DNA of 64,000 nt, from contig JAULBX010031591.1 in NCBI GenBank assembly GCA_032358255.1, positions 62,001-126,000 of the forward strand. Direction: 5' to 3'. Below the pieces are notes generated by a model. It was not told the DNA's origin. It saw only the letters and a list, made by a program, of their open reading frames with translations, and made no database searches. Source of the stretch: Heterotrichella gracilis (taxonomy: Eukaryota > Sar > Xanthophyceae > Tribonematales > Xanthonemataceae). The position numbers and the translations under genes are program-made. Shown here piece after piece: positions 3,877-36,143 of the stretch (positions within the stretch are counted from its first letter, which is position 1; the number at the start of each line of letters is the position of its first letter).

Positions 3877-6800
3877 TCACCCAGGCCGCACAGACAGCGG
3901 GTTGGCCAGCATGCCTGTGTTGATCCAGGCCTCCGCTGGGGTGGGGGGCGCGGCGGGTGCGGGGCCCCCGCTGGGGTAGGAGGGTCTCCTTGCGCTGCTG
4001 CCCTGCCGCTGCAGCGCCACGTGTCGCAGGCTGACCTTGGTGAGCAGCGCCTTGGCAAAGTACTGCCGGCGGCTCAGTAACCGCACCTGCGCCGCACACA
4101 GCTCGCGGGGTCAGTGCATGGGGCATAGGCATGGAATTTCGAGTAGGCAACTGGCTGCGCCGCAGTGACCCGACCTGCGCCGCACACAGCTTGCAGCATC
4201 TATACATGGGTATGCAGCGTCAAATTGGCAAGGGGCTGGCCGCGGCTGATTGTGACTGCGCCCACGCCACACACGCCTCATGAAACGAGTACTTGGGTAC
4301 ACTAAATAGGGGTCAACAGTATTACACAAGTACTGAAATGGGGGCATGTGTGTTGGCTGTATGTTGGCTGTATGTTGGCATTCCTGTGCTTGACCAGCCT
4401 TCCTGGCTGGCTGTGGTGCCCTGGTGCGCGCCAGTAGCCCCTAACTCCGCCTCTGTGAGTGACAGCTTTCAATAACCAACCAAACCAAACCAAACCAAAA
4501 TAGGAAAAATATCCACCTGCTTTAGGTAGGCGTCCCCATCAATCGCCCCTGCATTTGCCGCCCCCTCCAGCGCACTCAGTGCGTCCTCCAGAGCCAGGTC
4601 CTCAGACTGAGCAGCCAGCGCCATTGAGGCCAGGTCGGTGGCAGGCACAATGGCCTCATCGGGGTTCACGGCCTCTGCAAATGGACCAAAGAGATTACGT
4701 TACGTAAGGGGTAACTAAGAAACCCAACAATCAATTGTTTAAGTAAATATTTACAACCCATGGCCAGGCACGATAGCCTCATCGAGGTTTACAACCTCTG
4801 CAACGATACCAAGGGGAATACATTACTTTAGGGTGGGCTTGTGGCGTTGGAAATTACTACCTATGTCTAATTTACACACTATGCCCGGGGCACCAAAGCC
4901 ACTGGATTTTACTCGTGACCCTACATTTTGTAGATGTCACTTCATGCAGCGTGAAGCATGTTGCCTTGCAAGGGCCTGCACAGGTATGTTTCCCTGGGTT
5001 GACCCCCCCCGGTTTCACCTGTGAGCGCCTTCCCCCTGTTCTGCGCCAGCCACGGTCCAGCTCCCCTGGCTTGAAACCCAAAACCCTAAACCCTACAGGG
5101 TCTCACCTGTGGGCGCCTTCCCCCTATTCTGCGCCAGCCACCGGTCCAGCTCCGCCATCTGCGCAGACATCTCAAGGACCTGCTTCTCAAGGCTGTTGCG
5201 CTCACGCTGGAGCGCGCCAACCTGCGCAGGGAGGTCGGAGTTTAGGGTTCATGGCATGTATAGGGGTACTCGCCCTTTTTAAGTTGGAGAGGGCACGGTG
5301 CCCAACTGCAGCCGTGCATGCACCTGCCTCTCACTACCATTGCCCTTGCGCTAAAGCGCCAACCTGCAAACATTAGGTTACAGTGCCTGACACCAGCAGG
5401 TCATGCACAAATATCTACCAGTCAATCATGATTAACCACGCAATCCGCACCCCTTTGCTGCGGCACCCCATCCCGCTAGCAAAGCAGACCCTTAACCCTG
5501 TATCTTGGACACGCGAGCCGTACCCCTTGCTGCAGCATCTTGTCCCGCAAGTTCAGCTCCGCCTGTGTGCGCAGCAGCCCCTCCATCTCCTCCCCAACCT
5601 GCGTGTGCAGCTCAGCCATGCTGCCCTGCAGCCTCCTGGTAAGCGCCTGGATGGTGGTCTGCCGAAACACAGCCTGCGCAGATTGCAACACATTAGTACG
5701 AGTGTGTTATAATTAAGGTCATTTGTAGAAAGCGTTTTGGCTGCCAATACGCAGGGGCGTGCTGGTGGACGAAGGGAGGGGTGAAGGGTTTGGGTGGGGT
5801 TTGTTGCAGGGTGTGCAGCTCTGCCATGCTGCCCTGGAGCCTCCTGGTCAGCGCCTGGATGGTGGTCTGCCGAAACACAGCCTGCGCAACGATGAAACAT
5901 ATCTTTGTTATTATGTTATAACAAGTCATTATTATTTATGCTGATGACACCCATAATGACAAGTGAATATGCAGATTGGCTGTATGGTTCATGCAGACCA
6001 CCTGTGCGATCATGCAGGTTATCTTTAATGATCATGTATGCTGTGGTGGGTGGTGCGAGGCAACCCCTGGGAATCACAACTCAAACTCCTCTCTGGTTGG
6101 CCAAAACCCTAAACCCTAAACCGCACCTCAATCTCCTCCCTGGTGGCCCTCTTCACAGGTGGGGGTGTTGGCTCGGGAGGGCGTTGGGCGGCGGTGCCCC
6201 ACGGGATGTTGGGGTAGGGCGACTGCTGTGGAGGGTACTGGCCACTGCACACACACGCACAGCAAGTCCCTTGTCAGTACCTCCCCTGCGGTGAATGTGT
6301 GGCGATGTCCTCAATCCCACTCCCTGCCATGTCCTGCTGGTTGCTAGCGCATGGGTGCAATGCTGGGTGCATACCCTATTGCAGGGTCTTGCCTACCTCA
6401 TCAAAGATTGCAAGTTCTATGACGCAGGGTTTGCCTCCCTAGGGAGCCCACCACAGGGATGGCAAAAACCCTACAGCAGGGTTTGCGCACCTCATCATGG
6501 GGTTGGCCGCCTGAAAGGTGGGCCCCCCCCACGGCGGCCGCACCCCGCCCTGCGGAGGGTACTGCGGCGAGGGCTTCGGCGGCTCGTGGTACCCCGCAGG
6601 CTTGGTGAATAGCGGCGGGTCGGTCCCAAACTGGATGGACATGTCGTGCGCCAGCTCAAACAGCGTGCTGCGTGGGAAGGCCCAGTTGAAGAGGTAGGGC
6701 ACGCTGACGAGGCCCGAGGGGTCCACGAATGCGTGTCCCGGTTTGACCACCATGTCGCTTGTGGGGAGCACGTAAACGGTGGGGCGATCCCGGGGATAGC

Positions 6801-8242
6801 CCTCGAGCAGCCAGATGGCGATGGGGATGTTGTACTTGTGCGCCTGCGGGAGGGCCCAGGCCACAGGGCTTAAGGTTTAGGGTTTAGGGTTTGGGGTCTC
6901 TGTGCTTGTGCGCCTGCGGGAGGGCACAGGCCATCAGGTCTCTGTACGAGAAACTGGGTTGTGCTGCTGGGTTGCGTGGAGCTAACCAACGGACAATGGG
7001 GTTACAATGGGGGTGCTGAATACCACACCTTGGGCATGTGCGCCTGGTTCACATGTGCAAGTATAACTGTGCAAGAGCAACAAACGGTTCAACCGGCGCC
7101 AGGATAGGACTGCTTGGCGGTGGCATGTGCTGGTTGCTCACAGACAGTGTACTGGGGAGTGTGGAAGACTGACTGCTAATCTGGCTATTTTGCTGGAATG
7201 CATGTAACTAACTAACTAACTAAGTGTACTGGGGGAGTACGTGACTCCAAAGGAAGCTTCAAGGGAGCCGGACTGGGCCACAGACAGTACCCACACCCAC
7301 CCCATGCCCATACCGCCACCCATATGCAATTTGCACAAGCAGTGGCGTGTGCCCCTCAAGGCCCTGAGGGTTCTGTGGCCAACGTTTTGTATTAGGGTTT
7401 TGGGTAAGGGAGCCACGCCCACCTGGTAGTACATTGGGAGGGTGCCTTCAGCCACCAAGTAGTGCCCACTCCTGCAAGCAGGGGAGCAGCGGTGTCAACG
7501 CAGAAGGCGCTCGCTACACCTTCCCAAGCAGGGAAGCAACAGTGTGTCTTAGAAGGCGCTCGCTACCCCATTAGTGCACGCCCAACCCAAATATGGAAGC
7601 AGTGGTGTCATTGTGAAAGGCGCTCGCTACACTTTGTATGCACCCGCCAACCCAAACAGGGAAAACAGTGTGCCTGCGCTCCCTACACCTTGTGTGCATA
7701 CTGAAACTTAAACAGGAACACCATGTTTGAGAATGAGGCGCTTGCTGCACCTCCCAAACCCAAACAGGGGGAAAACAGTGTGTCCTGAGAACGTTGAGTT
7801 GCTACGCACCTGCCATCTGTATGCATATACTCCTTCAACTTCACTGACAGGGTGGAGATGTCCTGCGGTGCAATACACTGGGTGAGCGACGCCCCCACCC
7901 GTGCACACTGTGTATGGTGCTGGTGTTGCTCCAAAGCCTGGTGGGGCTGCTTGCCACCCACAAGCCCATAGCGCAGTGCATACATGTATGCAGTGGAGGA
8001 GTGAGCTGAAGCTATGTGGGCTCCTCGTGGCTATTGCTGCTGTGTTTTCCAGGACTTGTCTGGGCCTCTTGCCACCCACAACCCAAGCTGCACAGTGGCT
8101 TCTAGACGTTCGCACGCACCTGCACCAGATCAAGGAGGTGCTGGCGAATGGTCCACTTCACGTCTTCTGTGTACGCCAGGTCCCTTCTCCGGGACAAGAT
8201 GTCAGTCAGGAAATCAGCTGTGGCGTCCTTTGGTAACGACAT
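3877..8242 (-). CDS. VPS23: ESCRT-I subunit VPS23/TSG101 (plant ELC type)
   Basis: This is the ESCRT-I subunit that recognises ubiquitinated cargo during multivesicular body sorting. The start ATG is at 8242 (MSLPKDATADFLTDILSRRR). Exons include 8120-8242, 7810-7862 (DISTLSVKLKEYMHTDGR), 7423-7471 (LVAEGTLPMYYQ) and 6491-6843. Together these give a clear UEV domain: YNIPIAIWLLEGYPRDRP, then PTSDMVVKPGHAFVDPSG and the SVPYLFNW segment, ending near FGTDPPLF. A Pro-rich linker follows (about 6130-6240), then a coiled coil (about 5104-5230 and 5510-5680) and a C-terminal steadiness box (about 4525-4669 and 3877-4080, with VRLLSRRQYFAKALLTKV) that stops at 3877. Introns are long. Several exon edges are repeated next to the real exon (listed separately), so exact splicing of the coiled-coil part is uncertain. 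The family assignment is secure. Confidence 0.9.
4637..4815. repeat. Duplicated exon edge in VPS23 (steadiness-box exon)
   Basis: The block at about 4637-4692, which covers the 5' end of the steadiness-box exon and the upstream intron, is repeated with about 80% identity at 4763-4815. Both copies contain the run from GGCAGGCAC or CCAGGCAC through CTCATCG to CCTCTGCAA, followed by a similar intron tail (ATTACGTTACG versus ATACATTACTT). No telomere-like tract separates this pair. Confidence 0.7.
5023..5157. repeat. Duplicated 5' splice-site region in VPS23 with telomere-like spacer
   Basis: The stretch at 5023-5070 (containing GCGCCTTCCCCCTGTTCTG) recurs at 5110-5157 with very few differences. 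The repeated stretch includes the exon end encoding LDRWLAQNRGKAP and the adjoining donor. The spacer contains AAAACCCTAAACCCTAC, a CCCTAAA telomere-like tract. Confidence 0.8.
5573..5886. repeat. Partial tandem duplication of a VPS23 coiled-coil exon
   Basis: On the minus strand, the peptide AVFRQTTIQALTRRLQGSMA is encoded twice, at about 5615-5680 and again at about 5820-5885. The first copy continues into an open coiled-coil exon (VGEEMEGLLRTQAELNLRDK). The second copy runs into non-coding sequence after GSMAELHT. The pair therefore looks like one real exon plus an incomplete upstream copy that keeps the acceptor. Confidence 0.8.
6835..6934. repeat. Duplicated 3' splice site of the VPS23 UEV exon with TTTAGGG spacer
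   Basis: CTTGTGCGCCTGCGGGAGGG occurs at 6835-6854 and again at 6904-6924, each followed by a similar CAGGCCA stretch. On the minus strand this is the acceptor (CCGCAG/GCGCACAAG) of the main UEV exon. The spacer at about 6872-6892 is a run of TTTAGGG repeats. Confidence 0.85.
7161..7222. mobile_element. Small intronic insertion element, copy 1
   Basis: The stretch 7166-7211 is identical over 46 nt to 10969-11014 in a different gene. It contains CTAATCTGGCTATTTTGCTG and ends in ACTAACTAACTAACTAA. It is bounded by direct repeats AGTGTACTGGGGAGT (7146-7160) and AGTGTACTGGGGGAGT (7223-7238), which look like a target-site duplication. It lies in a VPS23 intron. No coding capacity is present. The family is unknown to me. 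Confidence 0.65.
7470..7815. repeat. Minisatellite in a VPS23 intron derived from a splice-site region
   Basis: There are about five to six imperfect units of roughly 60-70 nt, each with a variant of AAGGCGCTCGCTACACC and of AAGCAGGGAAGCAACAGTG. The last unit merges into the real exon-intron boundary at 7801-7820 (GTTGCTACGCACCTGCC). This suggests the array grew by repeated copying of that donor site region. Confidence 0.7.
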
Positions 8243-9266
8243 GGCGAGCGTAAACCCAGCCCCAGGAATCCTATAGGTGTTGGCCGCAGCCCATAAGGGG
8301 ATAACGCTACTGGGGGACGCACAAAGACAACTCTAGACGCAGGCCCTTGGCCCAGGTTACCCACCCACTAGGGGGTACACCAGGCAACAGAAGGCAGCGA
8401 CACATCGAGGCGGCGTTCCCATGGTGACAAGTGGCTCAACAAGACGGCTGGGTCACTGTTTTGCTGTGCGCATCGTCACGTACGGAGTCGAGGTTTGTGC
8501 GCTTTGCATGCATATATGCAGGGTTTGCGCAGCTCCTAGGACTGCACTGGGGATGGGGAGCGTCATATGCAAGAGTCGCGGGCAGGAAACCCTTTAGGGT
8601 TTTGATGAGTGTTCTTCCCATTGATCAAGCAGTGCAGTGCCAAGAGAAGCCCTTGTTTTGCTCAGTTGAGGGCACGCAGACCCACACCCATGGTTGCAAA
8701 GCATGCCTTATCTGGCAGGCAAACCACAAGGATTCCTTGGAATCCAAGCGGTATACCCACCACATCCACCACAAGGTTCCCAACGCCATGGCATGTCAAT
8801 GAGTGTTCGGACGGGTCCAGTATGCACACTACCCATGTTGCAAGCAAAGGGAAAAAGAGGACACACATCACAACCAGCACCAACATTGTGGGGGGAATGG
8901 CTGCCGTGAGATTGAAAATAAATTATTAAATATCAAACTACAGCTGCGGCACCAACGCCAAACTGGTAGTATCACGTGGGGTTCGTTTGGGAACACGTTA
9001 GAAGAGAAGGAAACAATCAATAACGACATGAGTAACTGGGCAAGTATGCTGAAGGGAAATGTACTAATTAAGAGGGTTGAAATACAAAAAAATCGAACTA
9101 AGGCAAGAAAGCAACCAATAACGACAGAGCTGCAGAGGTCTGAACAAGGTGCAAGGTTTTTGCATGTAAGTCTTCAAACAAAAAGCTTTCCTCTGTTCGT
9201 TCCCAACTCCCCTGCGGCATTCCAGGCTCGAAGCCACAATGTGGCCCAATAACGCACACCCCCTGC
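8243..9266. other. Intergenic region upstream of VPS23
   Basis: This region lies between the VPS23 start and the 3' end of the AP2-like gene, both on the minus strand. It must hold the VPS23 promoter and the AP2-like 3' UTR. The open frames here start from non-ATG codons or lack recognisable domains. No convincing regulatory motif is seen. Confidence 0.4.
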
Positions 9267-12200
9267 TCAGCTGGAGCTGCTGCCACCTGTCACTGAAGTC
9301 CCACTGGTGGCACCACTGGAGCTGCTGTCAGTATCACTCCCACTCCCCGAGACTGCTCCATCCCCCTCTCCATCCCCAGAGCTGCTGTCGGAATCCCCGC
9401 TGGAGGAGCTCGAGTCCCCACTTGAGGAGCCCGAATCGTCAGAATCCCCACTGGACGTGCCACTACCCACGTCCTGATGGCCAGCATCGTCTGATGACTC
9501 GCCCAGTGGCAGCAGCTCCCCATTGTGCTGCATCACCGCAGCGCGTGCCGCCATCGCCTCGACCACAATCAGGCCTGCAGCAAAATGCAATTCAAATAAT
9601 ATGTTTTTGTTATGATCAAAACCCTGCTGCATTGCCCTCAACTACTAACAGACAGTGAACATATACATTCATTACTTCGTTGTATTTCATATGCACATGC
9701 AATGCTTTTGGTAGAGTTCCTACGGCATTGCCCCGACCACAATCACATGTGTGATGACATGGTACTATAACCCTCCACATCTTCCCGGACCAACCACGTG
9801 TAGGGTTCATGGTGTAGCACACCTGTCGCCAGCAGCGCTTCATGGAACAGGCTGTTCAGGCGCCTGATGGGCAGCCGCTGTTTAGGTTTTAGGTTTTAGG
9901 GTTTCAAGTTGTATGTGTAGGGTACCTGTTGCCAGCAGCGCTTCAGGGGAGAGGCTGTTCAGGCGCCTGATGGGCAGCCGCTGGTGCGCGGCGTTGGCGT
10001 ACCCTTGCAACCCTAGGAGGGTTTCCAGCATGTAGGGGTGCAACAGCGGCAGCCAGGGCGCGGGGGCGCGGGGTGCGGCGCCAGTCACGCGCGGCAGCTG
10101 CATGGGGCGGAAGAACAGGGTCAATATATTACTACTATAAAATATATACATTTAGCATGTACGCTTTAGGTGGGGCAGGTGGTGGTCACTATTATTATGC
10201 ATTGGTGCAGGTGGTAATGCGTATTTGGTGCCCCCCAGCTCCACCAGCCCACTCAATCCCGTACGAAACCATGTGATAGAGGGAGCCGCATGCAGGGCAG
10301 TAGTGGCAACCAAGGCCCGTCCATTCTAACTGCGCACCAAATACACCATTTGCCACCCCAGTATTGCACCGCACCCACCGGTTCCCGCGCCATGTGCACC
10401 ATAATGGGGCACTCCTTGCTGGACACCACGTGGTACAGCGAGCCGCATGCAGGGCAGGTGGTGGAGATCGGCGCCCGCAGCGGCACCTGGCCCCCCTCCC
10501 TGCGCGCGTGGCGCGCCTCCGCCATGAGGTCTGGGTAGATGTGCGGGGCCCAGCTGCGCTCGTCCAGGGGCTCGTGGTTGTCGGCAAGGGGATTCCGCAT
10601 CGCTCCTGGAAGTATTTGGGCCAATTAGTAGGGTTCCATGGCCTTGGTTGTCAACGTACGTGGTGTTGGCTCAACCCTAAACCCACATTAGGTGCGCCTT
10701 TACCACGAGATCTAAGTAGATGTGAGGGGCCCAGCGTGGGAGGAATCGCAAATGATGACGAACATACCGCAGCAACAGATATAGAGAACAAGCTGAAGGA
10801 TTCTGGAAAGACAAGAGTACGCCTCATACACAGTTCTCTGTGTAGCGTTCAAGGTTTTAGGTGGCAGGGCATAAGGCCCACCTCCTAGGGTTTAATACCA
10901 GGGTATAGGGCATGACTGTTTAGGGTCCCTAAACCCTAAACCTAAACCCTAAACCCTAAACCCTAAACAGACTGACTGCTAATCTGGCTATTTTGCTGGA
11001 ATGCATGTAACTAAATAACTAACTATAGGGCATGACGGTCTCACCGTATCTCGGGCCCAACTCCTAGGGTTTAGGATGAAGGTTTTAGAGTATCTCACCG
11101 TAGCTGGGTCTTGACTTCTAGGGTCCAGGATTAGGATTCAGTATAAGGGTTTTAGGGTATCTCACCATAGCTTGGTCCCGACTCCAGCAGGTCCTCTTGG
11201 CACTGGCGCTTGTACTTGTGGGCCAGCGCGCGCTCAAAGTGCACATGGATTGCCTGTGACAAGGACATGGTGCCGCGTTTAGGAGAACAGAGCTTTTCAA
11301 GTCCTTCAGAGTAGCAAGGCCTAGGGCCTGACGTGTGTAAGGCCCATTTGGCATTGCCGGTGTGTGATGCTGGTGATCGTAGATGTAACTGTGACTGTCA
11401 TTGGCCCAGCCGCACAGGCGCGACATTTCCATCAGCCTTGCATCCTTCACATTTGCCTATGAAACCTCCAAACCCACCTGCCTCATTAAACCCTCACCCA
11501 CCTCCACCTGTTAATCACCTACCGACCACCCACCTACATACACCTTTCTATCCCCCTCACACCCCAGCGCCCACAAAATAACGATAACAAATAAGACCTT
11601 TTATAATCATATTACCCTTGCCAGCGCCGCACCTTCTCCCGCCATGCCCCCAGCCTGAAATCCTTCATATCTGCCCGAGGCACCTCCAACCCCTCATGCC
11701 CCTCTGCCCCATCGCCCACATCGGCCAGATGTGGAATGTCCGGGGGCCCGGTCTTGCCTGTTTTGGCCCCCTTGGCAATCAGAAGCGCCCGATTCCGCAC
11801 TGCCTGTGCACACGGCTGCGGAGCAGGGGTTTAATGTTTAGGGTTTAGGGTTCAGAATTCAGGGTTCGTTACTGCCTGCGCACACGGCTGCAGAGCTGGG
11901 GTTTAGGGTTTAGTGTTCCTTACTGCCTGCGCATGCGGCTGGGAAGCATGGGTCCACGGGTAGTTCATTAAAAGTGCAGGGTGTATCTTTGTTCACGGCT
12001 TTCGGGGTGGGCCACAGAGCAGAATGACTGGTGTCTTCAGTTTTACCTTATTTGGGATGAACTCGGCACTTCCCCACCCCCTATAACCACCCACCCGCTC
12101 CAACCCTAAACCCTACACCCTACACCCGGCACCCTGCCACCACCCACCTGTTCCAACCAGGGCTGCATGCAGGCCTCACACAGGCCGCACACCACATACG

Positions 12201-13932
12201 CGCCGCTGCTGCGCGCGATCTTCAAAAGGGCCGCAGCGCCATCCAGCCCCTGTGCCCCCATGGTGCGCTGCACTGTGTAGGTGCGAGCAAGCGCTGCCTG
12301 CACCCCGTGCCGCAGGGCGCCTGGGGTGGGTAGCCCGGGGTTGGCCGCCATGGCGTGCGCGTGTGCGTGGGTGGTGACGCCCCTGGGGACCTGGTAGTCC
12401 TGGGAGGGGGGGGGGAGGGGGGAGGGGGGGGTTGATTATGCATGGAGGAGGTGCAGTGACTGCTTCTGGGCAGGTGGTGGTGGTGATGGCGGTGCATGTG
12501 CCTGGAGTTAGTGCAGGGTACTTGGGGTGGGTAGGCCTGGGTTTGCGGCCATGGGGCGTGCGTGGGCAAAGGTGGTGACTCCACTGGGTGCCTGAATTCC
12601 TGGAGAGGCGTGCGGGGAGGGTAGTCCTAATGTGTTTGGCAGGCTATGGTGGGTTGTGAAATGCATGTGACCAAGGTGGGGGGGGGAGCAGGCTGTGGGT
12701 GGGTGTAGCAATGCACGTGGGACAAGGAAGGGTATATGGGATGTAATCTGATTAATAACATGCATTTCTTGTGTGTTTCAAGAATTACCTGTGGCGCAAA
12801 GCACCATAGCGGGTAGTTCATCTTAGTCTTCATGGGCAGCTGGGGCCCGTAATAGATGAGCAGCGCCCTGTCACGCACATGGGCGGCCTGTTCGGGAGTG
12901 TCGTAGAGAAGGAGGGGGCGGAAGGACCAGCCGGGCTCTGGTGAGAGGCAGACGGAGCAGGGGTTATATCTGGGATACTGGTAAAGGGTTCAAGGGGAGC
13001 GATTGTGGTGGTCACATGGTGGGAGTAGGCATGCGGGTCGCAAGGGCCGGGAGGGGGGTGCATCACTCTGTGCCAAAGTGCCACTGAACGCATTTGGGGG
13101 TTTCATGTAGGGTTGGCTCAGGGTTCCACGTAGGGTTCCGCTCACCTAGGTGCTTCCCACTCTTGTAGATCTTGTGCACGCCGAACATGCCGTTGGCGTT
13201 GCGCTCAATCCCAAACCAGGTGGTTGCAAGCCCCCGGAGCTCCTCAGGAGGTTCTGCATGTGCCTGCGCCACCGCCTCCCTTTGCTCTTGGTTGAGCCTC
13301 ACAAGGTAGAGGGAGGTTTGGTCTGGGGGGTGCGGGGGGCCGCCGGTGGGGGCGGGGCCCTGCGGTGGGTCCCTCGGAGGGTGCTGGTGGGTGCTGGTGG
13401 ATGGTGCTGGGTTGCTGGGGCGGTGTGGCTGCGTGGTGATGGCGGTGGTGGTGGTGGGGTCTTGTCGCTGGGTGGGGAGTGGGGGGTGCGGTTGCGCAGC
13501 GGTGGGCCGCTGCTGCTGGTGGGAGGGTGGGGAGTGGGGGCGTGCAGACCCGCCCTCAGCCTTGCCTGGTTGTTGCGCTGTGGGCCCTCGAGGGAGGCTA
13601 CGGTCACTGGGTGACGTGGACCTGGGGCGCTTCTTGCCACCAGCCATGACTGTGGCTGTGGCTGTGGCTGTGGCTGTGGCTGTGGCTGTGGTTGTGGCTG
13701 TGGTTACTCGGGGCTGTGCATCTGCCCCGCCGAGGTGTGCAGCATCCCCATGCCGCTGACCCCTGGGTATCCGCCTGGTTTGGTTCGCAGCTCGAGACGG
13801 GGCGTCCTCGTTGCTTGCGATAGGGCTTGTGGGTGCTTTGGACCGTCCACGTGCTGCTGCTGCACGGGTGGGTGTGGGGCTGGTGGCTGTTTGGAGCTTT
13901 GCCTTTTTGGTGGGCGACTGTTTCGAGCCCAT
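9267..13932 (-). CDS. Divergent AP2-like domain protein with acidic Ser-rich tail
   Basis: The start ATG at 13932 gives MGSKQSPTKKAKL. The first exon (13146-13932) encodes a long disordered region rich in Pro, Thr, Ala and His. Its end plus exon 12789-12937 reads WFGIERNANGMFGVHKIYKS, then PGWSFRPLLLYDTPEQAA, then HVRDRALLIYYG and MKTKMNYP. The DTPEQAAxxRDRA...NYP pattern matches the second half of an AP2/ERF domain, but the usual YRGVR core is poorly kept. A shorter similar piece (AVRNRALLIAKGAKTGK) lies at about 11620-11815. Later exons encode QAIHVHFERALAHKYKRQ (about 11168-11260), a possible Cys pair in TCPACGSLYHVVSS (about 10450-10600), about 9930-10110, and a C-terminal acidic Ser/Gly/Asp tract ending at 9267. 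A nuclear regulator is likely. The domain call is by eye and moderate. Confidence 0.55.
9825..9983. repeat. Duplicated splice-site region with TTTAGGG-like spacer (AP2-like gene)
   Basis: About 58 nt at 9825-9883 (GCCAGCAGCGCTTCATGG ... GGCAGCCGCTG) is repeated at 9926-9983. On the minus strand it encodes RLPIRRLNSLSPEALLATG plus the donor. The spacer starts immediately after the first copy with TTTAGGTTTTAGGTTTTAGG, a degenerate telomere-like tract. Confidence 0.8.
10497..10738. repeat. Diverged exon echo in the AP2-like gene
   Basis: Exon sequence at about 10505-10555 (ATGAGGTCTGGGTAGATGTG and GGGGCCCAGC) recurs in more diverged form at 10690-10738 (GAGATCTAAGTAGATGTGAG and GGGCCCAGCG). 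It is preceded by CAACCCTAAACCCACATTAG. The second copy is not open in the coding frame. Confidence 0.55.
10917..11025. mobile_element. Small intronic insertion element, copy 2, with telomere-like tract
   Basis: The insert consists of about six CCCTAAA units (about 10929-10967) followed directly by the element shared with 7166-7222 and an ACTAAATAACTAACTA tail. The 13-nt direct repeats TATAGGGCATGAC at 10904-10916 and 11024-11036 bound the insert exactly, as a target-site duplication would. It lies in an intron of the AP2-like gene. Confidence 0.65.
11040..11185. repeat. Triplicated 5' splice-site region (AP2-like gene)
   Basis: There are three copies of a 25-nt motif of the form CTCACCRTAGCTYGGTCCCG at 11040-11064, 11094-11118 and 11161-11185. 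The last is the real exon end and donor (minus strand ...GGACCAAGCTATG/GTGAG). Between the copies lie TAGGGTTTAGG and AAGGGTTTTAGGG spacers. Confidence 0.8.
11799..11951. repeat. Triplicated exon/intron edge with TTTAGGG spacers (AP2-like gene)
   Basis: Three 30-nt copies start with ACTGCCTGTGCACACGGCTG or close variants at 11799-11828, 11871-11900 and 11922-11951. The spacers are GTTTAGGGTTTAGGG-type tracts. The copy at 11799 belongs to the exon edge encoding QPCAQAVRNRALL. The other two are upstream in the intron. Confidence 0.85.
12402..12431. repeat. G-rich tract in intron
   Basis: A run of G interrupted by two single A's, next to the exon encoding DYQVPRGVTTHAHAHAMA in the AP2-like gene. 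It could form a G-quadruplex and could also be a spot of assembly error. Confidence 0.6.
13651..13703. repeat. In-frame TGTGGC hexanucleotide repeat
   Basis: About eight to nine units of TGTGGC lie inside the first exon of the AP2-like gene. Read on the minus strand they encode alternating Ala-Thr. Because the unit is six bases, length changes would not break the frame. Confidence 0.85.
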
Positions 13933-22139: not shown

Positions 22140-25100
22140 CTAGCGGCCGCGCATCTTGCGTTTCCTCAAAAACGCAGGGATTTCGATGCCCAAATCCCTG
22201 GGAGGGGGGGCAGGGGCGCTCTCCACCGGCGCCGACCTGCGCTCCGCAGCCGCCACCCCCACGGTTTCTGTGCGCTTCTCCCCCTGGCCAAAGCCAGTGG
22301 CGATGAGCGTGATGCTGACCTGGCAGGCGCGGGGGCAAGGGGAGAAGGTGAGTGATCTAATGCAGAGAGGGCGGGTAGGACAGATAGTGGGATGCATGTT
22401 GCAGGTGGTTGAAGGGCAATTTTCATGGTTTAGGTGGTGCATAGCAGGCGGTAGAGGTCATGTGTAATGCAAAGTCGTGTGTGTGTCGGAGCGGGGAGCT
22501 GCAGTGTAAAAGCAAGGGAACTTGCGGGAAAAGCTATGCAGCAGCAACACCAAGTTAAATGCCTTTTGGGATGCACTAGGGTTTAGGGTTTGCGCGCAAG
22601 GGGTGCAGCAGGTCTCACCTCTCCCTGCAGCTTGGGGTCCACCACCGCTCCAAAGATGAGGTTTGCATTAGGGTCCACCAGGTCATAGATCACCTCAGCG
22701 GCCTCATTCACCTGCACACACGCAGAGGGGATGCGTCAATAATATGTGTATTGTAGTATACTATGTGTATTGTAGTATACGTATGTGCAAGCGGGGTGCG
22801 TCACAGGCACACATGCAAGGGGGGTGCGGTCACTCGCTTCTACTAGAATAAGGAGGTGGTCGCAAATGCAATCCCAAAGTATACAATCAGATTAGTGCCC
22901 GCCTTGCCCCCCGACTGCGAGGAATTCTAGCACACTGCGCACACCGTGTAAGCCATCCCACCAGCCTTACACAGGGTCGTGTCAGGGCCGCCATGAAAGC
23001 TCACCCAACCGCACGGTCACAAGCCATATTAATGCCTTACTAACCTGGATGTTCTGCTGGAACGCATGCAAGTTAGTTATTCAAATGCCTCGCCACCCAT
23101 CTTAAACAGGGTCCTGTCTGGGGGCCCTTGATGTTCCACACAATGCCATTTGCCCCCTCAACCCCAAAATTGAATTGATGCAACTGCCACCACACACGTA
23201 CTTCTGGCGCACCACCCACTGCACCACCTCGAAACCCCGGTAGCCCCATCAAACCAAACCTCAAAACACAAATCTAAATTACACTTCCAATCTCCCCACC
23301 CACCTCAAACAGGGTCATGTCTGGGGGCCCCGTGATGTTCCACACAATCCCGGTGGCCCGCTCAATCCCAATGTCAAGCAGAGGAGAGGAAATGGCAGCC
23401 AGCGCCGCCTCCCTTGCCCTCCCCTTGCCGGTGGCCCTGCCCTGGCCCATGAGCGAGGAGCCAGCCCCGGTCATGACGGTCTTCACATCAGCAAAATCCA
23501 CGTTGACCAGGCCAGGGACCTGCAGGGCGCAAAAATTCAGCACAAAATTGAGTCAAACAATGACTAGGTAGGGAATTTGCGGGCAAATGATTTCCAAGAA
23601 GACAAACATTGCTTTGTTTGGTGGAAACTAAGCCAATGTACAGTTGTTGCATTGGTGTAATCCACGTTGACCAGGCCAGGGACCTGCGGGACAAACAAGA
23701 TAAGGCACAGTTCAGTGCACATGAAGGCAGAACAGGATCCTGCTTTGTGTTGACCACGCCAGGGACCTGCAGGGTACGTTTCGAATGATGCAGAGATGTA
23801 GCCATACAATGACCAGGCCGAGGGACCTGCGGAATCAAGGGGGGTGGTTGTGGCTGCTTGCAGGGGAATACTGAGGTAATAGGCATTCATGGTGGATTGC
23901 CAACCCTACGCCTTAGCTAGGGTCTCACCGTCCTGAGGTCTGATATGCAGCACAGATCCTGACTATACCCTAGCCACTACCCGACAGGTAAAGCCGCCAG
24001 CCCTACTCTACACCCTAGCCAAGGGGCTTACCGTGATGATGTCTGAAATGCCGCGCACGCCCTGCCGCAACACGTCGTCCGCCACCCTGAAGGCCTCGGT
24101 GACGGGCAGGTTGGGGTCCACAGCTGCAAGTGACACAAAACTGTTTAGGGTTTAGTGTTTAGGGTTTAGATTGGGTTGTCCGCAACCCTGAAAGCCTCGG
24201 TGACAGGCCAGTTGGGGTCCACAGCTGCAAGTGACACAAAACTGTTTAGGGTTTAGGGTTTAGGGTTTAGGTTGGGTTGTCCGCAACCCTGAAGGCCTCG
24301 GTGACAGGCAGGTTGGGGTCCACAGCTGCAAGGGGGGAGGAAATCACGTGAGCAGTGGTGTCCGATAATATTCAGGTGGCACTGGTGCATGGAACACATG
24401 TCCTCTACCCATGCCTACTGCACTGCACACATGGAGTTGCCCAGCCCAAGCATGCATGTTGCAACGCTGCTTATGTAGGGCCTGCTCCTGGCTGCTAGGG
24501 CAATGCACATGCTTGGTATGCGGTGATGCGTGTTTGAATGCATGCTCAAATGCACGATGGGTGGCAGTGAATGACTTGATGAACCCTGTGCGATCGTGAG
24601 ATGCATGATCGCTTGCACAGAAAGGTGCGGGCCGCACCATCCAGCAGGCGATCGTTTGGAATGACGATCAGGGTGTCCACAGCCGATCGCAGCGCATCAA
24701 TCGCCTCCAGCGCCTGCGAGTTAGGTTAGGGTTTGCGGTTTACCAGGAGAAGGAGGTCGCCGCTGGTCACAGATTGTGGCAAGAGTGACAAGACAATCGA
24801 TCAGTGCAGAGTGGAGTGGAGTGGAGTGGAGTGGAGTGGAGTGGAGCGCATGCATGCAGTAATTGATTGTCCACTCAACAGCAGTTCTACAGGACGACTG
24901 AGCCCTCACACACTGTTTGGCCAAGCCACTCATGACAGCACAGTGCATGCATGCATGCTTGTTAAATGAGCGCTAACCTGTTGCACACACCAAACCCCAC
25001 ATCCTACCTGTCGCATGCGCAGCCTGCCCTCGAAGGAGAAGGGTGTGGTGACGATGGCCACAGTCAGGATTCCCAACCCCTTGGCCACAGAGGCCACCAC

Positions 25101-27450: not shown

Positions 27451-30400
27451 TCAGCGGAACTTTATGCTGACCAGTGGCACGTCCAAGTCCTCCCCCTCCT
27501 CATCCTCACACGCCACCACCACGTCAAAGTGAGAGCGGTAGTCGGGTATGTCGTACTTGGCCACAGTCTTCACCAGGTCTGACATCTTCTTGTCCATGCG
27601 CTCCTTGTGCTTGGGGAAGATGTTGTTGTACAGCAGGCTCTGGCCGCAGGAGATGCTGTACGCCTCAAGGCCGCGCGCCTGTGCACATTAAAGGGGGGTT
27701 AGATGAGAACAACGGCGGGAGGTGAGGGGGCCACATGTTCCATGCTTCAAGTTGGGGGGAGGGAAGGAGGGACGAGGTATAGGGGGATGAGTGCGGTGGC
27801 AGCAACGTGGGGTGCGGAAAGCAGGCGTGGTGACCTATGCATTCCATCGTACAAGTACAGTACAAGAAACTGAGGCAGCTTTAGCAGGAGTACACCAGTG
27901 AAAGAATTGCGACCAGACGAAATTTGTGTGCCCAACACGACACGTGCCAGGCCCACACTCACCCTCAACCACCCCAGCACCCCTAAACCCTAAACAGTTA
28001 CTGACCCTGGACCCTAAACCCTACATTACTTACCCTGAACCACTCCAGCACCTGCAGGACAGTGAGGTCCCCCTCCAGTATCCACCTGTCCCACAGTGAC
28101 CACTGCATGCCGTTGAAGGTGAACACCTTGGGGGGCACGGGCTCAGCCATGGCAAACACCGGGATGGCGATGTTGGCAAAGGTGTTGCGGTACTGCTCAA
28201 GCGGCTTGCGCTGGATGATCTTGTACAGCTCGAGGCACACCAGGCCTGGGGAAAGGGGGGAGGGATTTGTGAGCTGCCAGATCACATGCAAATTGCTGTG
28301 GAATGCATGCGACTGCCACTGGAATCTGTACATGCAATTGCCGTGGAATCTTTGCCAAGCTTGCGCCAATGGAGCAGCAAGCACAGACTCTTCAAAATGA
28401 GCGCCATCACCTTTACACCACCCTACTACACCGCCAACCCCTAATCCAACCCGCCCACGCCCACCTGTGGCCATGGCCGTGGCTGTGGCGATCGCAGGGA
28501 TGATCTTGCCCGCGATGAGCTTGGCCTGCAGCCGGTCCACCTCGGGGATCTTGTAGTTTCGCGCGCGCATGTTTGCCATGCCGGCGATGCACGCCATGTG
28601 GTAGTTGGTGTCATCGTCCTTCTCAAAGGTCACGGGGTTCAGCCGGAACTCTGGCCCAATTGAGGTGGAGGCGACCTGCGGAAAGCAAAAAGAAAATGAC
28701 AACAACTTAGCATGATATATTTCAATTGCCAAATGGCAGTGTGCACATGGTAAATGCATATATCGCCAGAAACAGCTGCCAGGCATTGTGCCTCACATGC
28801 CGACACGTGCAGTATCATGCAAAACCGTGGTCACAATTCCAATGTCAAGTGCCACTGCATTTACAGAGTTTAAAGCTTCATAACTTCCCACGCCACACAT
28901 AGCAGCGATAGTGCACCCCCGCACAGACCCACCTCCAGCTGCTTCAGCATGTTCTCAATCACCGAGTTGTCATCCGACGCAGTGTAGGCTGGCTTATTGG
29001 TGGCCTTGGGGTCCGTCTCGATCTGCACACCCTTCTTGGGCTGGAACTCAGGCACGTGCACCGCCGCTGCCGCCTGCGCCACCTTGGAAGCGTCCGCTGC
29101 CCAGTCAGGCAAGGCCACGCCCAGCACCTGAGAAAGAGATGCAAGATGAAGGCTCAACATCCCGTCCAGGTTGTTTCACTTTGGAGGAGACTCATGACAG
29201 GATGTTTGAATTTTCTCCCTTGCACATGCGACCAAGTTTTGAATGGAAGCAGACGAGAACAAGAGACAGGAAACTTAAAGAGCAGGGGTGGGAAAAGCAG
29301 GCACAAAACACAATACAACCACCAACATATCTCGAATTCACAACATTTTTACTTTTTTATGTAAATATATAAATTATTCATAAGAAAAGTACCTGTGCGC
29401 GCAGGATGGCGGCCGCCTGCACAAACGACACCATGGAGGCGTCCTCTGGTGAGAAGTCCAGCGGCTGGGGGAAGCGCTTTGGCGCCGACCAGAAGAGCGA
29501 GCCCGTGGAGGTGCGCGCGTCCTCTGGGAAGGTGTAGATGAGCTGCGCGATGCGGTCATGGAAGTGGTGCTGCACAGGGGGGCGCCACTCAGTTGTGTTA
29601 CATGCACCGCAAGCAGTGCCAGCCACATTAGTCACCATTGAGTCAAATGCCACCATGCGCAAGGTAAGTGGTAATAATTTATTTCAGTGGCTGGAAATGG
29701 ACACAATTTCCAGCCACTGAAATAAATTATTACCACTTACCTTGCGCATGGTCTATTACATGCACCCCAGCAACCATATTAGCAGTCAACACGCGCTGTT
29801 TACAAATGAGAAATATGGTGATAATCTAGGGGCACCCTCTACACCACCCACTCCCTTACCTGGAACTTGAACCTGGCCCAGGCGATGCACTCCTCAAAGC
29901 TGGCGCACTTCTCGGTGACCAGCAGCTCCAGAATCTTCTCCAGCTGGTCCCGGGCAGCGGCATCCGACGATTGCCTCACAGCCGTCAGGTACTTTTGGGG
30001 GTCGGCCAGGTAGGTGTTGGCCTCCTGGGGGGCCTTCTCAAACATGCCCTCGAACTCTGAGCGCGCGAAGGTGAGCGCGTGCTGGATGTTGTGCGGGAAG
30101 GAGTGCACCGTGCACATGGGGGCTGACTTCTCTGGGGGATCCCGGGAGGCACCTGCATCCCAGGCAAGGGCAGCGCAACTCAGAAAATCATCGGACAGCC
30201 ACGTCCTTGAAACCTAGACTCTGTGCCATTTGCTGCACTGGAAAGCCTCCCTGTACCATGCTTACTCCATGGTGCACATAGGCAGCACTTGCTGCATGGT
30301 GGCAATTTGCGCAACCCCATGCGATTCTAAAACAGGTACACGAACAAGCTGCGTGGTGCACATGGTACAAAGAACGAATGCTTCACTTGGCTGCCCTGCT

Positions 30401-33400
30401 GAATGCATGTCATGAACTAACCCAATGTGGCATGCAGCTCATGGCACCATACTGTAATTCTCTGCCATCTTAGGGTTTATGGTTCAGGGCACCGTACAAT
30501 AATTCTATATCATCTTAGGGTTCAGGGATCAGGGTTAAGGGCACCGTACCATAGTTCTCCGTCATCTTGGGCACGATGTTCTGTGTGTTGCACTTTGGCC
30601 CCAGCGTGCCCGACTCCAGCAGCGGCTTGCAGAAGTACACGCAGCGCGCGTCCACGTACAGCCGCGCGTTCACGTTGTCCAGAGCGTTGACCACCAGGTC
30701 CAGGCCCCCCCAGAAGCCGTCGTCAAACACGTCCTCGGTGTCGGGCGACACCCGGTTCTGCAGCGCGTTCACCTTGAATGAGGGGTTGATGGCGCTGGCG
30801 GCCTCGGCGGCCACGGTGGACTTGGAGCTGCGTGTGCAATAGGACCGCTCACATGCATTGTCAAGAAAGGGTCAATGTGATAATGCAGTACTTGTTGTAT
30901 ATATGCATCCATGTGTGAAAAGCGACAAAAGACAAAACTCTGTGCATGCATGATCTTGTAGCTCCACATGATGCAGGGCTACATTTGCATATGCATGCAT
31001 ATGTCCAATCTGGCCAAGGACAAGATGCTGCGTATGCATGCATATGTGAAAGCAAAGGACAAAATGCTCCACATGCATGCTAATGTGACAGGGCTGAAGG
31101 GCCATGTGTAATGTGATGGTGCAGCATATGTAAGAGTGATAGTGCCTTATGCATGTACATGCAAATTTGATAAAGTCACTGCAAATGCATGCATATGCGG
31201 ACCCCCTACCCACCTGCCAATGTTCCAGTCCCTGAACAGGAACTGCCTGCTCAAGTTGCTCTTCTCGATCACATCATCATCAGTGACCGTGATGTTTCCC
31301 CCCTGGCAGCCCAGCCCCATGAGTGCAAAGTTCTTCAGGAACTCGCAGCCCAGCGCGCCCGCACCCACCAAGAAGACGTTCAGGTTCTCCATCTTCTGCT
31401 GCAGCGTCTTGCCCAGCACCGCGATCTGCCCGTCGTACCTGGTGCCCTGCACAGGCATGGTAATTCTACCTCAGGGGAATCCTACCATGTGATACATGAC
31501 TCGTAATGTTTGTGAGAAGCACGTGACATGCCCTATCAAACTGGTGCCCTGCACAGGCACGCTGAGGAGGCTGCCGCCACATGGAATATACCTTGCGTGA
31601 TCTGGCAACACCCATATTGCTACCACATTCACAAAAACAGAAGCCGCAGCAAGAATTGAAAATGGTTTTTGCAATTACACCTACCTGGGGCAGGAACTCC
31701 TCCCGTGGGAGGTCTTCCTCAGGGAGGGACTCCACAGAGTCAAAGTAGAAGAACTGGAAGATGGGGTGGAACTTGCCGCTGGCCGCTTTGACCACCTCCT
31801 GCCCCACCACGCCACCGAACATGGCCGCCATGGGGTTGAGCACGCCCTGCGCTGTGTATGCCAGCTTCTTCACAATGTCCTCCTCCAGGTCTGCCCTGTC
31901 CTTGGCGTTCTCGTTGATGGACTTGGCGATGGAGATCACCTTCTGGGCGTCCTCCTCGTTCGCAGGCTCGGGCAGCCTACCCGTCTCCGCCTGCATGGCA
32001 ATATTACTTACTTATGCATTCCAGCAATGCAGTGCATCCAATGCATTTGCAGTTAGTCCTGTCCTAGCCCTGTCCCCCACCATGATATGTGACGTTGTAT
32101 AGCAATCAATTGCATGCAGAATTACCCTTTGAACCAATAACAGGTCAGCACTCCTTACCTGGAATGCGTCCAGCGCCTGGAAAGCCACATGGAGCGTGGC
32201 GGGGCGTGCAAACTTGGCAAAGTCGCTGAGGAGGAACTCGCCTGGCTCGTCCAAGGCCTGGCTAAGAGGCTTGAAGTTCAAGACCTTGCCCTCCTTTAAC
32301 TGAGTGACAATGCCCGCCTTCACATATGACCCATACCCTCGCACATCCTCCTCCAGCTCAAATGAGTGGGCCTGGGTGTTCACAATTGCGAACGTCACTT
32401 GTCATTCAAGCATGGATGCCTTGTCAGCGTGACGCACAACAGGGAGCAAATATCGGCACAGGAGTGGCCTTTGAAACTGACCTTGCAGTTCTTTATCTTC
32501 CTGGGCTTGCCGTCGTTCAGCTGCTCCAGGCCTTCCACCTCTTGGAAGGTGACCAGCTGCCCATCCTACACAGCCAAACCACCCGCTGATGCCCACACTT
32601 GCTTGACACAGACAGTGCAGATGCATTCACCAAAAGATGCTGTGGAAAGCACCAAGGTATGGCACATTGGTGAGGTACCTGGAACTCCAGGCGTTCATCA
32701 TCCACGCAGGTTACCAACGTAGGCTCCCCAGCCACAATAGATGCCACGATCCCGGTATGTGGATCCTCCCCTGCAGACATGATTGCTTCAGCTACCTGGC
32801 CAATCATGCATGACAAAAATTGGTTACCAATGATAGCAATCGAGACCAAGGAACAACTGCCTCACTTGCTTCTTGGCCCATTCCAAGCTGGCCACGCGCT
32901 GCCCCACCTCATTCAGGTCGTTCTTCACATCTTTGAACCCGCACACCAGGGTCGATGACCCTAAGGGTTCTATCTTAGTTTGCGGGTGAAAGAAGTGAAG
33001 AACAGATTGAGTGAGGTGGGACAGTGGCCAGCTTGGAAGGGGCCAGGAAGCAGGCAAGGCAGTGAAAACAGTGGTCCTGGACGGATTATTTTAGTTGGGT
33101 AACCAGCTGCTCACGCTTGAGTCCACCGCAAGGACTGTGCAGTGTGGGTTTGCGTCAATACCCTTGGTGAGCTGTCCTCAAGTCTGTCCACCACAGAAAC
33201 TCACCATCCACGTCAAAGACTGTGAAGGCTGGTCCAAAGTCGCAGAACACTTGGGCGAACACGCCCCTGATGTCAGCCTTGATGAAGGAGATGCCGCTCT
33301 TGTGGCAGAAGTCATCTACCCTGATTGCCTCTGCAAGGGTCATCTCCGTGCACAGCACCACCTGTGCAGTCCCACAGTGGTAGCCGTTGGTGCCTAGGAC

Positions 33401-33980: not shown

Positions 33981-34774
33981 AAGCTGGGCCGTCCTCCGGG
34001 ACTCTCAACGGTTTACAAAGGTGGCACTTGATCAGCCAGTTGATGGCAACGTCTTAGTTTTCCAGCTGGACACAGAAAAACAGGGGACTCCGAACCATGG
34101 TGGCTGATTTGTATGCTCCCAAGTCCAATGAAGTGATGGACACAACACGGTCGATGTCACGGGGGCGTGATTTATTTACCCTAACCAAAACCCTACACCC
34201 TGCCGTGGCAATAGCCTTTAATGCAGTTCGCACTCACTGCCCCCCAGTGGCTGTACCCAGCTAGCAGCATCATGATACTCTAATGACCCGTGTACAGGGG
34301 TTGCCGCGGCCTTTGACAACGCCGAACTTCCCAAGTGCAGCAGGCTGGCACCATGGGCCTTGCAGCTCCAACCCACAACACAACCCAATATTCACACGGA
34401 ATTTGAACAGCATTTTCACAAGCACTGCACATTGAATCCAGCGTCAGCCCAGGATAGGAGCGCAATGTGGCCACAGCTGCATCACTGGTGGGTTGCTGGC
34501 CGATCATCCCAACCTGAAGTTTGGCAAGCAGCTGCAGCACTTCAAAATATTAACACAGAAAGATGGCCTCAAGTTTGTGCTCCTGCTGTGTTGCTGACCA
34601 CAACCCCGCCCATTAACATATTGTACACCACTCACAGCCCCGAGTGGTATCACAACCGTCTGTAAATGCTGACTGCACTGATGCCCAAGGGAATGCACCA
34701 CAACCAAACGTAAAATTGCCAGCATAAAGCCCCCCCAAATGCTGCCCGCCTGTACCCACAAACTCTGCCCCTCG
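33981..34774. other. Intergenic region, E1 promoter side
   Basis: Contains the E1 upstream region and the 3' flank of the methyltransferase gene. A CCTAACCAAAACCCTACACC telomere-like fragment is at about 34178-34199. No gene is supported. Confidence 0.4.
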
Positions 34775-36143
34775 TCAGCTCTGCAGCCCCCCCTTTGCAC
34801 CGTAGACCGCCCCAGGGATGCGCCCCCCCTTCTCCAGCGCCTCGTTGTCTTCCTGGGGGAGGCCTGTGCCCGTCACCTCGTTACCAACCGTCACCCAGTA
34901 GTCCCGCAGGTTGTTCTTCCGGCCGAAGATCTCGAGGTACTTGCCTGCACCACCACAGGGGTCCAAACAGCTCAGCGCAAAGGCACAAAACCAGAGACAC
35001 ATCTGCTTACATATGTGAGAGTTAAAACTTGTTTACAGGCTTCATGTCTCCCAGTCACTGCCCAAATCCCAATCCTAGGGGAAGAAAGCTGTGAAATGGA
35101 AAGGGTAGCAGCGCACAGGGCGCCCACGGCAAGCACACCCACTTTTGGGCAACAGCTCCTCCACCAGCTGGTAGACCTCCTCTTCACCTGAACCCTAAAC
35201 CCTAAACCCTGAACTGCAACAAGGACTTCACCAACGCCAAGTACAAGCCCAGGGCAAGCAGACCCACCTGTGGGGACCAGCTCCTCCACCAGCTGATAGA
35301 TCTCCTCGGGCTTCTGTGACTGGCCCCTGCGCTCGCTGTAAATGATGTCGCTGCCCACCCCCCGCTTGGTCCCCGGCGGGGTGTTGCCCTTCTTGCCCAC
35401 CAGGCACACCTCCTTGGCGTGTTGCAGGTAGTAGCCGTGGCTCTTGGCCATCCGCCGGTTCACCGTCATCTTGACCCATACAATCTCGTCCACCAGCCTG
35501 TGCAACACACACAGCAGTGGTGATACAACAGCTTTCAAGGGCTGAGTGGAACACAGTGAAGGTTGGAAATGTGTGCAAGGGAGGGAGAGACGTACTCGTA
35601 TCCCCACTTGTCAAACAGGTCCAGGGTGAACTTGTATTTGGCGTTGATGACCCACACAAAGAGGAAGCCGTCCTTCTGGAGCCTGGGGATCGGCAGGTTG
35701 ATGATGTCGTTGTCTGTGAGTTGGCTGTACCCCAGTGCCACGCCCCTGGTTGGGTTTGCGGTTGCAAGCTGCCATGGTGGGTCCATCATTATGACGTCGA
35801 AGGTGACTGTGTTGTACAGCTGCGACCAGTCATAGGTGGTGACGTTGGCGTGGATGGGCACACAGTGCGTCGGCACCTGCCATTCACTGGGGTCTAGGTC
35901 ATCCACTGACCCAACCATGTAGTCCACGCCCTCCACACCGAGGCCATCGTCAGCAGGTCCTGCCTCGCCATCCTCCTCATCCTCATCCCGAACATCGGTG
36001 GGCACTCCTAGCTCCTCTAGCTCCTTTGTTAGGCTCTGGATCTCAGACCGGTGGCCTTCGATCAGCTGTGCAAGGGCGGCATCGTCCAGCTGGTCCCAGT
36101 TGGGTTCCGAGGACGTCGCTGTCTCAGGCCCACCCTCAACCAT
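34775..36143 (-). CDS. Compact MT-A70 adenine methyltransferase, MTA1/AMT1-like (candidate DNA 6mA writer)
   Basis: The ATG at 36143 (MVEGGPETATSSEPNWDQLD) is chosen because the frame further upstream starts only at TTG. Exons 35596-36143, 35268-35497 and 34775-34944 join in phase to 315 residues. The catalytic motif is FDVIMMDPPWQLATANPTRG. GFLFVWVINAKYKFT, then WGYELVDEIVWVK, HGYYLQHAKEVCLVGKKG, IIYSERRGQSQKPEEIYQLV and YLEIFGRKNNLRDYWVTVGN follow. DPPW marks an active MT-A70 enzyme rather than a METTL14-like partner. The protein lacks the long N-terminus and CCCH fingers of METTL3. The DPPWQ...PTRG, INAKYK and NNLRDYWVTVGNE segments fit the ciliate/algal MTA1 class of DNA N6-adenine methyltransferases better than METTL3. 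The N-terminal region is acidic with a short predicted coiled coil (about residues 25-45). METTL3-type mRNA methylation remains the alternative. Confidence 0.8.
35118..35320. repeat. Duplicated exon end in the MT-A70 gene with CCCTAAA spacer
   Basis: About 70 nt around the exon-2 donor (35249-35320, encoding PEEIYQLVEELVPTG) has a diverged copy at 35118-35188 (EEEVYQLVEELLPKSG). AACCCTAAACCCTAAACCCT lies between them at about 35190-35209. The extra copy keeps a GC-rich donor-like edge and is still partly open. Confidence 0.85.

Follow-up and report, generated by a model that had tools for sequence, protein, structure and literature searches.

The window analysed here is a 64,000-nt stretch of the genome of the xanthophycean alga Heterotrichella gracilis (C896:62001-126000, i.e., contig JAULBX010031591.1 of the assembly GCA_032358255.1, 68.5 Mb in 903 contigs). 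At a number of exon edges in this window, a short sequence is present two or more times in direct orientation (hereinafter, an echo), and a tract of the heptamer TTTAGGG, or of its complement CCCTAAA, frequently lies between the copies. Outside the window, many sampled tracts of this kind are flanked, and some closely abutted, by direct repeats in a large excess over random positions, inverted tracts are, genome-wide, predominantly arranged head-to-head, and splice-donor motifs cluster a few nucleotides away from the tract edges. This set of features probably originates from staggered breaks, often located just past a splice donor, whose 3' overhangs were extended by telomerase, filled in, and joined.

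The repeat unit is the organism's own telomere repeat: at least seven exact TTTAGGG units in a row are found at, or within 200 nt of, the ends of 11 contigs, with the G-strand running outward. The pattern (TTTAGGG)3 gave 406 and 428 matches on the two strands (834 in total; these 21-mers overlap and include the contig ends), so many long tracts are available for study; the same pattern read backward gave 0 matches genome-wide. The genome also possesses a gene with a telomerase RNA-binding domain (C626:23723-24513), recognized as two separate matches, presumably two exons. The TTTAGGG repeat has been described as ancestral in green algae (PMC8226300); taken by itself, it would, along with the presence of FtsZ and the chloroplast-type DHAD match given below, suggest a green alga. 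A search for plastid rbcL gave no match.

Duplications flanking the telomere-repeat tracts

The sample from outside the window comprised 116 internal tracts of at least 21 nt, taken in contig order among the matches listed (hence non-random), plus 12 head-to-head sites. The 150 nt on each side of a tract were aligned with telomeric words masked, and a score of 36 served as the threshold; the null consisted of 2735 random positions, all from this one window, avoiding telomeric words. A flanking direct repeat with a score of at least 36 was present at 42/116 tracts, and both copies lay within 10 nt of the tract in 19/116, vs. 74 and 1, respectively, of the 2735 random positions. The first 68 tracts (27 flanked, 14 abutting) differed from the random positions with Fisher p ~6e-23 for flanked and ~9e-23 for abutting tracts; the next 48 tracts contributed 15 and 5 cases. 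These figures support the earlier note on this DNA in its suggestion of insertions accompanied by target duplication, such as staggered breaks leave behind.

The duplications range from 10 to 77 nt (median 27 over 26 clean events, three head-to-head sites included), and young, near-identical cases are represented by L143 (39/39), L138 (18/18), L153 (19/19), L186 (23/23), and L068 (33/34). The junctions display the footprint of break repair, i.e., duplication, filler, and microhomology. Slippage of tandem repeats, or minisatellite expansion of telomere-like words within duplicated exon edges, could be invoked for the several arrays of three or more copies (L003, L075, L137, and a 101-nt unit in the window at an FtsZ exon). 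Still, such expansion seems very improbable: both copies abut the tract at 19/116 loci and almost never at random positions, GT-repeat tracts of the same genome taken as a control were flanked in 1/18 and abutted in 0/18 cases, and no permuted heptamer comes near the telomeric frequency in the window.

The window itself harbors 22 telomeric 12-mer tracts, vs. a mean of 0.03 in 30 first-order Markov shuffles and 1 tract for the best other class among 20 permuted-heptamer classes (telomere class included). A telomeric 10-mer was found in the spacer of 7/14 filtered local duplications, with 0.64 expected and 0/5000 permutations reaching 7. A direct repeat at or above the threshold flanked 8/22 window tracts, and in 3/22 it lay within 10 nt on both sides. 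Thus, the enrichment of TTTAGGG as a filler between duplicated edges, postulated by the earlier note, held over the controls in the window and in the 116 sampled tracts alike; the association is not universal, since the other seven window duplications have no telomere spacer. The echoes of the window, and the tracts within them, are as follows (window coordinates, strand sign, feature):

5011-5064 / 5099-5153 (-): two copies of an exon end with donor-like CAG/GTGA, 92% identical; CCCTAAA tract 5081-5095; putative VPS23 (label of the earlier note)
6831-6870 / 6901-6941 (-): two copies, the first in the UEV-domain frame, 90% identical; TTTAGGG tract 6874-6892
9812-9880 / 9915-9983 (-): two-copy echo with a donor-like motif, 89% identical; degenerate TTTAGG(G) spacer 9881-9914
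11799-11845 / 11871-11917 / 11922-11968 (-): three copies; tracts 11827-11852 and 11899-11913
24074-24376 (-): acceptor-side start of an FtsZ exon within a 101-nt unit, from 24077, with ~2.5 repeats; tracts 24143-24169 and 24244-24271
27957-28051 (-): two copies with ACTCACC (minus-strand donor GGTGAGT) at the edge of the E1 SCCH frame; tracts 27981-27995 and 28011-28023
30427-30571 (-): three imperfect 48-nt copies at the edge of the ThiF (E1) frame; outer copies sharing 69% and 79% identity with the central copy
35122-35182 / 35247-35307 (-): two copies downstream of the MT-A70 frame (35535-36290), 86% identical; tract 35191-35210

The duplicated exon-edge stretches reported previously are, therefore, present, with an identity of 86-92% in the two-copy cases. 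Among the seven spacers described as telomeric, the one within 9812-9983 (TTTAGGTTTTAGGTTTTAGGG) is degenerate, with an exact telomeric match of just 10 nt. The spacer at 30470-30535 is the weakest, with no telomeric 12-mer and a single 10-nt match recognized by eye. The echo at 27957-28051 (score 33, 21/24 identical) falls under the threshold used for the counts, and the right-hand copy at 35247-35307 holds the donor CAG/GTGGGT, as judged by eye. Pfam searches with nine window frames returned four matches over the cut-off (UEV, ThiF, MT-A70, E1 SCCH), one below it, and none for the remaining four. A separate homology check confirmed the FtsZ exon, together with the exon edge at its real copy. 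Hence, FtsZ, MT-A70, UEV, and the E1-type domains (ThiF, E1 SCCH) were upheld by homology; the VPS23, AP2-like, JMJD4-like, and ERF genes named in the earlier note are putative. A longer local duplication also occurs at 19568-20546, where stretches of ~100 and 305 nt, 81% identical, stand 443-565 nt apart with a spacer free of the telomere repeat.

Proximity to splice donors

Outside the window, exon edges at the real copies were checked by homology for DHAD (L073, with chloroplast-type DHAD as the best PDB match), RlmN (L114), and pyruvate formate-lyase (PFL, L216); in all three, the GT of the real copy coincides with the end of the homology or lies no more than two residues from it. Over 50 duplication events, 22 showed the donor-like motif GGTRNG with the GT placed 4-12 nt inward of the duplication edge, which amounts to 25 matches in 9 nt, or 2.8 per nt (0.39-0.77 expected); at other offsets from the edge its density was 0.2-0.75 per nt (2-10 matches per 8-15-nt bin). 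When the duplications were ignored and only the edges of the 116 tracts were considered, GGTRNG occurred 5-14 nt away at 2.5 per nt, vs. 0.9 expected and 0.67-1.12 further off (p 9e-6). The motif AGGTR behaved similarly (1.9 per nt vs. 0.67 expected), and two control motifs at the same distance showed 1.2 (0.75 expected) and 1.3 (0.96 expected).

At the same time, acceptor motifs were not enriched near the 116 tracts, the acceptor side being represented by single cases (FtsZ and, by eye, L002, L077, and L195). The closeness to splice sites in general, as described in the earlier note, is consequently narrowed down to donor (5') sites, and even there a donor motif lies 5-14 nt off at 23/116 tracts, not at all of them.

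Two other explanations have to be considered here. The first concerns donors only and suggests a bias of survival or detection: breaks would be random, those in exons would be lost, and those spanning a donor would retain one copy under conservation and stay detectable longer. Indeed, exonic copies are under constraint, so duplications at exon edges should decay more slowly. However, such a bias predicts duplication edges spread over the whole start of the intron, whereas they cluster 4-12 nt past the GT; a like cluster is seen near the tracts even without recourse to the duplications; and acceptors, which should be favoured too, are unenriched. It is considered a serious possibility, albeit not the favoured one. 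The second explanation assigns the tracts a selected function as telo-boxes or splicing enhancers. Telo-boxes are known in plant promoters (PMC10167121), but both orientations occur among the tracts near donors (15 in the TTTAGGG sense and 10 in the CCCTAAA sense with respect to the donor motif), and tract length and number vary. A selected function is, accordingly, regarded as quite improbable.

As a cause of breaks just past donors, one may speculate about an RNA-DNA hybrid formed over the exon end and stopped where the splicing machinery binds the donor.

Orientation of the tracts and proposed healing of the breaks

If both 3' ends of one break are extended with the G-strand and then joined, the product should read TTTAGGG followed by CCCTAAA (head-to-head), not the reverse. 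A genome-wide search for inverted tracts (10-nt arms, up to 25 nt between them) yielded 33 distinct head-to-head sites (42 overlapping matches) vs. 5 tail-to-tail sites (7 matches; p 4e-6); with 14-nt arms, the figures were 12 and 1. This excess matches G-strand extension from 3' ends and suggests that, at head-to-head tracts, both ends of the break were healed. Among the 12 longer head-to-head sites, the duplication score reached 36 at two (L138 and L143), with weaker scores at L137 (24) and L147 (29); a score of 24 is reached by 8% of random positions.

The clearest double-healed case is L143, where GGGTTTAGGGTTTAGGG-A-CCCTAAACCCTAAACC is bracketed by a perfect 39-nt repeat. As judged by eye, this insert sits inside an older PFL exon-end echo possessing its own telomeric spacer, which suggests two separate hits on that intron. 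The locus belongs to L216 (C203:43000-46200), where an intron of the PFL gene carries the old echo and, within it, the young 39-nt duplication with its head-to-head insert. Another composite locus, L137 (C33:134950-135480), comprises three target copies with two inserts and also contains the sole tail-to-tail match with 14-nt arms; here, tandem duplication seems to have involved a head-to-head insert along with its target copy.

In the proposed course of events, each clean echo would go back to one break, with the two strands cut 10 to ~80 nt apart. One or both of the 3' overhangs would gain TTTAGGG, most simply via telomerase, the complementary strand would be filled in, possibly by the C-strand machinery, and the ends would be joined. 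The sequence of the overhang would then be found twice, with the telomere repeat in between. Extension of the left end would give TTTAGGG, that of the right end CCCTAAA, and that of both ends the head-to-head arrangement. Since the breaks would fall preferentially just past splice donors, the upstream copy would retain the full exon end with its donor, while the tract and the second copy would turn intronic. Three or four copies could arise from later tandem duplication or from new breaks within the same intron. The spare splice sites left in this way are predicted from the sequence alone. The fill-in step would have a precedent in the Pol alpha-primase guided by the CST complex (see below).

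A different source of the filler has to be weighed at this point: the breaks might be staggered, but the repeats could be telomere DNA captured as fragments or excised circles instead of being made at the break. The tracts are short and the fillers are equal on both sides, which is compatible with capture, as is the phase of the tract ends, which is non-uniform but confounded. Two captured fragments should, however, produce head-to-head and tail-to-tail tracts equally, in contrast to the 33 vs. 5 sites observed, and the end of the L110 target duplication is in phase with the repeat. On balance, capture is deemed unlikely, and synthesis at the break by telomerase is preferred.

Several observations weigh against telomerase-mediated healing as outlined above. 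Captured ready-made fragments would yield most of the same pattern. No flanking repeat was recorded at the threshold for 74/116 tracts (these may represent blunt joins, deletions, old events, or tracts that arose differently), and 8/12 of the longer head-to-head sites have no duplication. Near-perfect palindromes are found among the head-to-head sites (C223:99900, C258:8383), and hairpin processes could produce these as well. The telomere spacer is absent in 7/14 window duplications and in 32/70 over all scanned sequence (mostly sequence picked for tracts; low-complexity pairs were dropped, as were those whose copies contained a telomeric 10-mer). With about half of the duplications devoid of it, duplication does not need the telomere repeat. 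Tested against the GT control, the 116 tracts yielded p values of 0.012 (any duplication) and 0.07 (abutting duplications), which makes this control weak when taken by itself. The edge expected to be telomerase-primed had no filler in 19/46 events and the other edge in 21/46, i.e., there is no priming signature; non-telomeric filler is frequent at the junctions. When edges were defined by BLAST, the donor signal weakened to 9/38 telomeric and 8/32 non-telomeric duplications; its similarity with and without the telomere spacer would suggest that the closeness to donors stems from the break itself rather than from the telomere repair. Finally, no empty site was seen: a DNA search for a second haplotype with window positions 9000-13000 gave, among the matches listed, just LINE-like end copies.

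Two further lines of inquiry were dropped. The phase of tract ends was considered as a telomerase signature, but the first count was biased by the phased search pattern, and the any-phase set (107 tracts, leaving out contig-end loci, head-to-head loci, and ascertained core tracts) was non-uniform but, in our reading, confounded by slippage variants like TTTTAGGG. The creation of new introns was sought by scanning exon-to-exon joins over 50 events for open frames. The best candidate, L116 (38 nt), is equally compatible with an ordinary intron that begins there and leads to a downstream exon, and Pfam gave one match, below the cut-off; hence, no intron birth is claimed. Fragments of telomerase RNA, seen as filler in rodents, are not required. 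A search for such filler by word recurrence alone gave no candidate: each non-telomeric 9-mer located up to 40 nt from a tract was confined to at most 3/116 loci.

A broader proposal can be put forward tentatively: in this lineage, telomere maintenance (telomerase plus C-strand fill-in) might be a routine means of healing transcription-time gene-body breaks just past donors, its scars might be a main source of intron growth and spare donors, and it might also heal some LINE 5' ends. In this full extent the proposal remains rather doubtful. If healing by telomerase is true, the genome sequence alone records the sites of gene-body breaks and the manner of their healing, with the tract as the mark of the join and the duplication as the width of the cut. 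The position of breaks, the action of telomerase off telomeres, and the lengthening of introns would then be tied together in one organism, offering a testable reason for the long introns and decoy donors in such genomes.

Known counterparts and retroinsertions

In mammals (rodents, primates, and horse), short interstitial telomeric sequences were inserted at double-strand breaks (PMC2246262, PMC7215372). The likeness includes short telomere-repeat inserts, microhomology at the break, and some direct duplications from staggered breaks, as well as head-to-head stretches at one rearranged locus in the horse. At the same time, duplication is rare in mammals (6/130 rodent and 4/25 primate loci, scored against empty sites) compared with 42/116 here, scored by flanking repeats alone. 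Deletion is the commonest change at the mammalian insert sites, and the share of human inserts in introns fits random insertion, whereas here donors are close by (PMC2246262, PMC7215372).

The CST-guided Pol alpha-primase, which is also the telomere fill-in complex, fills 3' overhangs at breaks and so generates tandem duplications (PMC8355091). As in the mechanism proposed here, nearly the whole 3' overhang is duplicated (43 and 49 nt); unlike it, no insertion of telomere repeats is described in the available part of that paper.

In Daphnia pulex, direct repeats from staggered breaks mark new introns, and repeated rounds lengthen them (PMC4202315). The repeats shared with the exon measure 4-12 bp there and 10-77 nt here, the introns there are new while those considered here are lengthened, and the string "telomer" occurs 0 times in that paper. 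The introners of Amoebophrya are likewise associated with direct repeats but belong to repeated families that carry inverted repeats, and their direct repeats, placed at exon/intron borders, measure 3-5 nt (PMC7789003); here, the telomere repeat was the sole shared insert found. Direct repeats of 4-30 bp close to intron borders have also been claimed and related to break repair (PMC11782384). Those sit at two opposite borders, in contrast to the present echoes with both copies near one border and the telomere repeat between them.

Among the titles and opening lines of abstracts listed in a literature search, none described telomere repeats between duplicated splice sites. Insertion of telomere repeats at breaks and staggered-break repeats at introns are already known; the combination of frequency, long duplications, donor proximity, double-healed junctions, and telomere repeats on the ends of retroinsertions looks new.

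The last item concerns a high-copy LINE-like element with an (AACT)n tail and target duplications of ~9-15 nt. One of its copies in the window is arranged as follows:

10904-11036 (+): LINE-like 3' end (~10969-11023) with the target duplication TATAGGGCATGAC (10904-10916 and 11024-11036)

The gap separating the left duplication from the truncated element is taken up by TTTAGGGT and a following CCCTAAA array (10927-10968). The L110 copy has a target duplication with GTTTA at its end, continuing in phase into TTTAGGG repeats ahead of the LINE-like element. Both cases fit telomerase acting on open 3' ends of a retrotransposition intermediate.

Such an element raises the question of whether a mobile element (introner, LINE, or DNA transposon) carrying telomere-like sequence could have left the target-site duplications everywhere. 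The LINE-like element does make duplications of its own, and the two copies just described hold the telomere repeat. However, the duplications at the tracts vary from 10 to 77 nt instead of having a fixed length, and the word search mentioned above revealed no shared non-telomeric insert. Moreover, a LINE end was present in the fetched stretch of just 3/128 tract loci (in L003, 600 nt from the tract). Among 20 LINE sites fetched irrespective of tracts (12 internal, 10 with the 5' junction within 150 nt inspected), a telomere tract was seen by eye at 0/10 5' junctions. Telomere repeats at LINE 5' junctions are thus rare, and a mobile-element origin of the tracts is extremely improbable.

Copies of the 57-nt LINE-like 3' end occur in the window at 7165-7222 and 10969-11023 and at L117-L136, and one window copy has at least 39 near-full further matches. 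Many contigs start or stop inside the element (e.g., C278, C249, C39, and C153), which suggests that the full element interrupts the assembly. Genome-wide, the reverse-transcriptase domain gave at least 58 matches, at least 47 of them over the family cut-off and several in long open frames.

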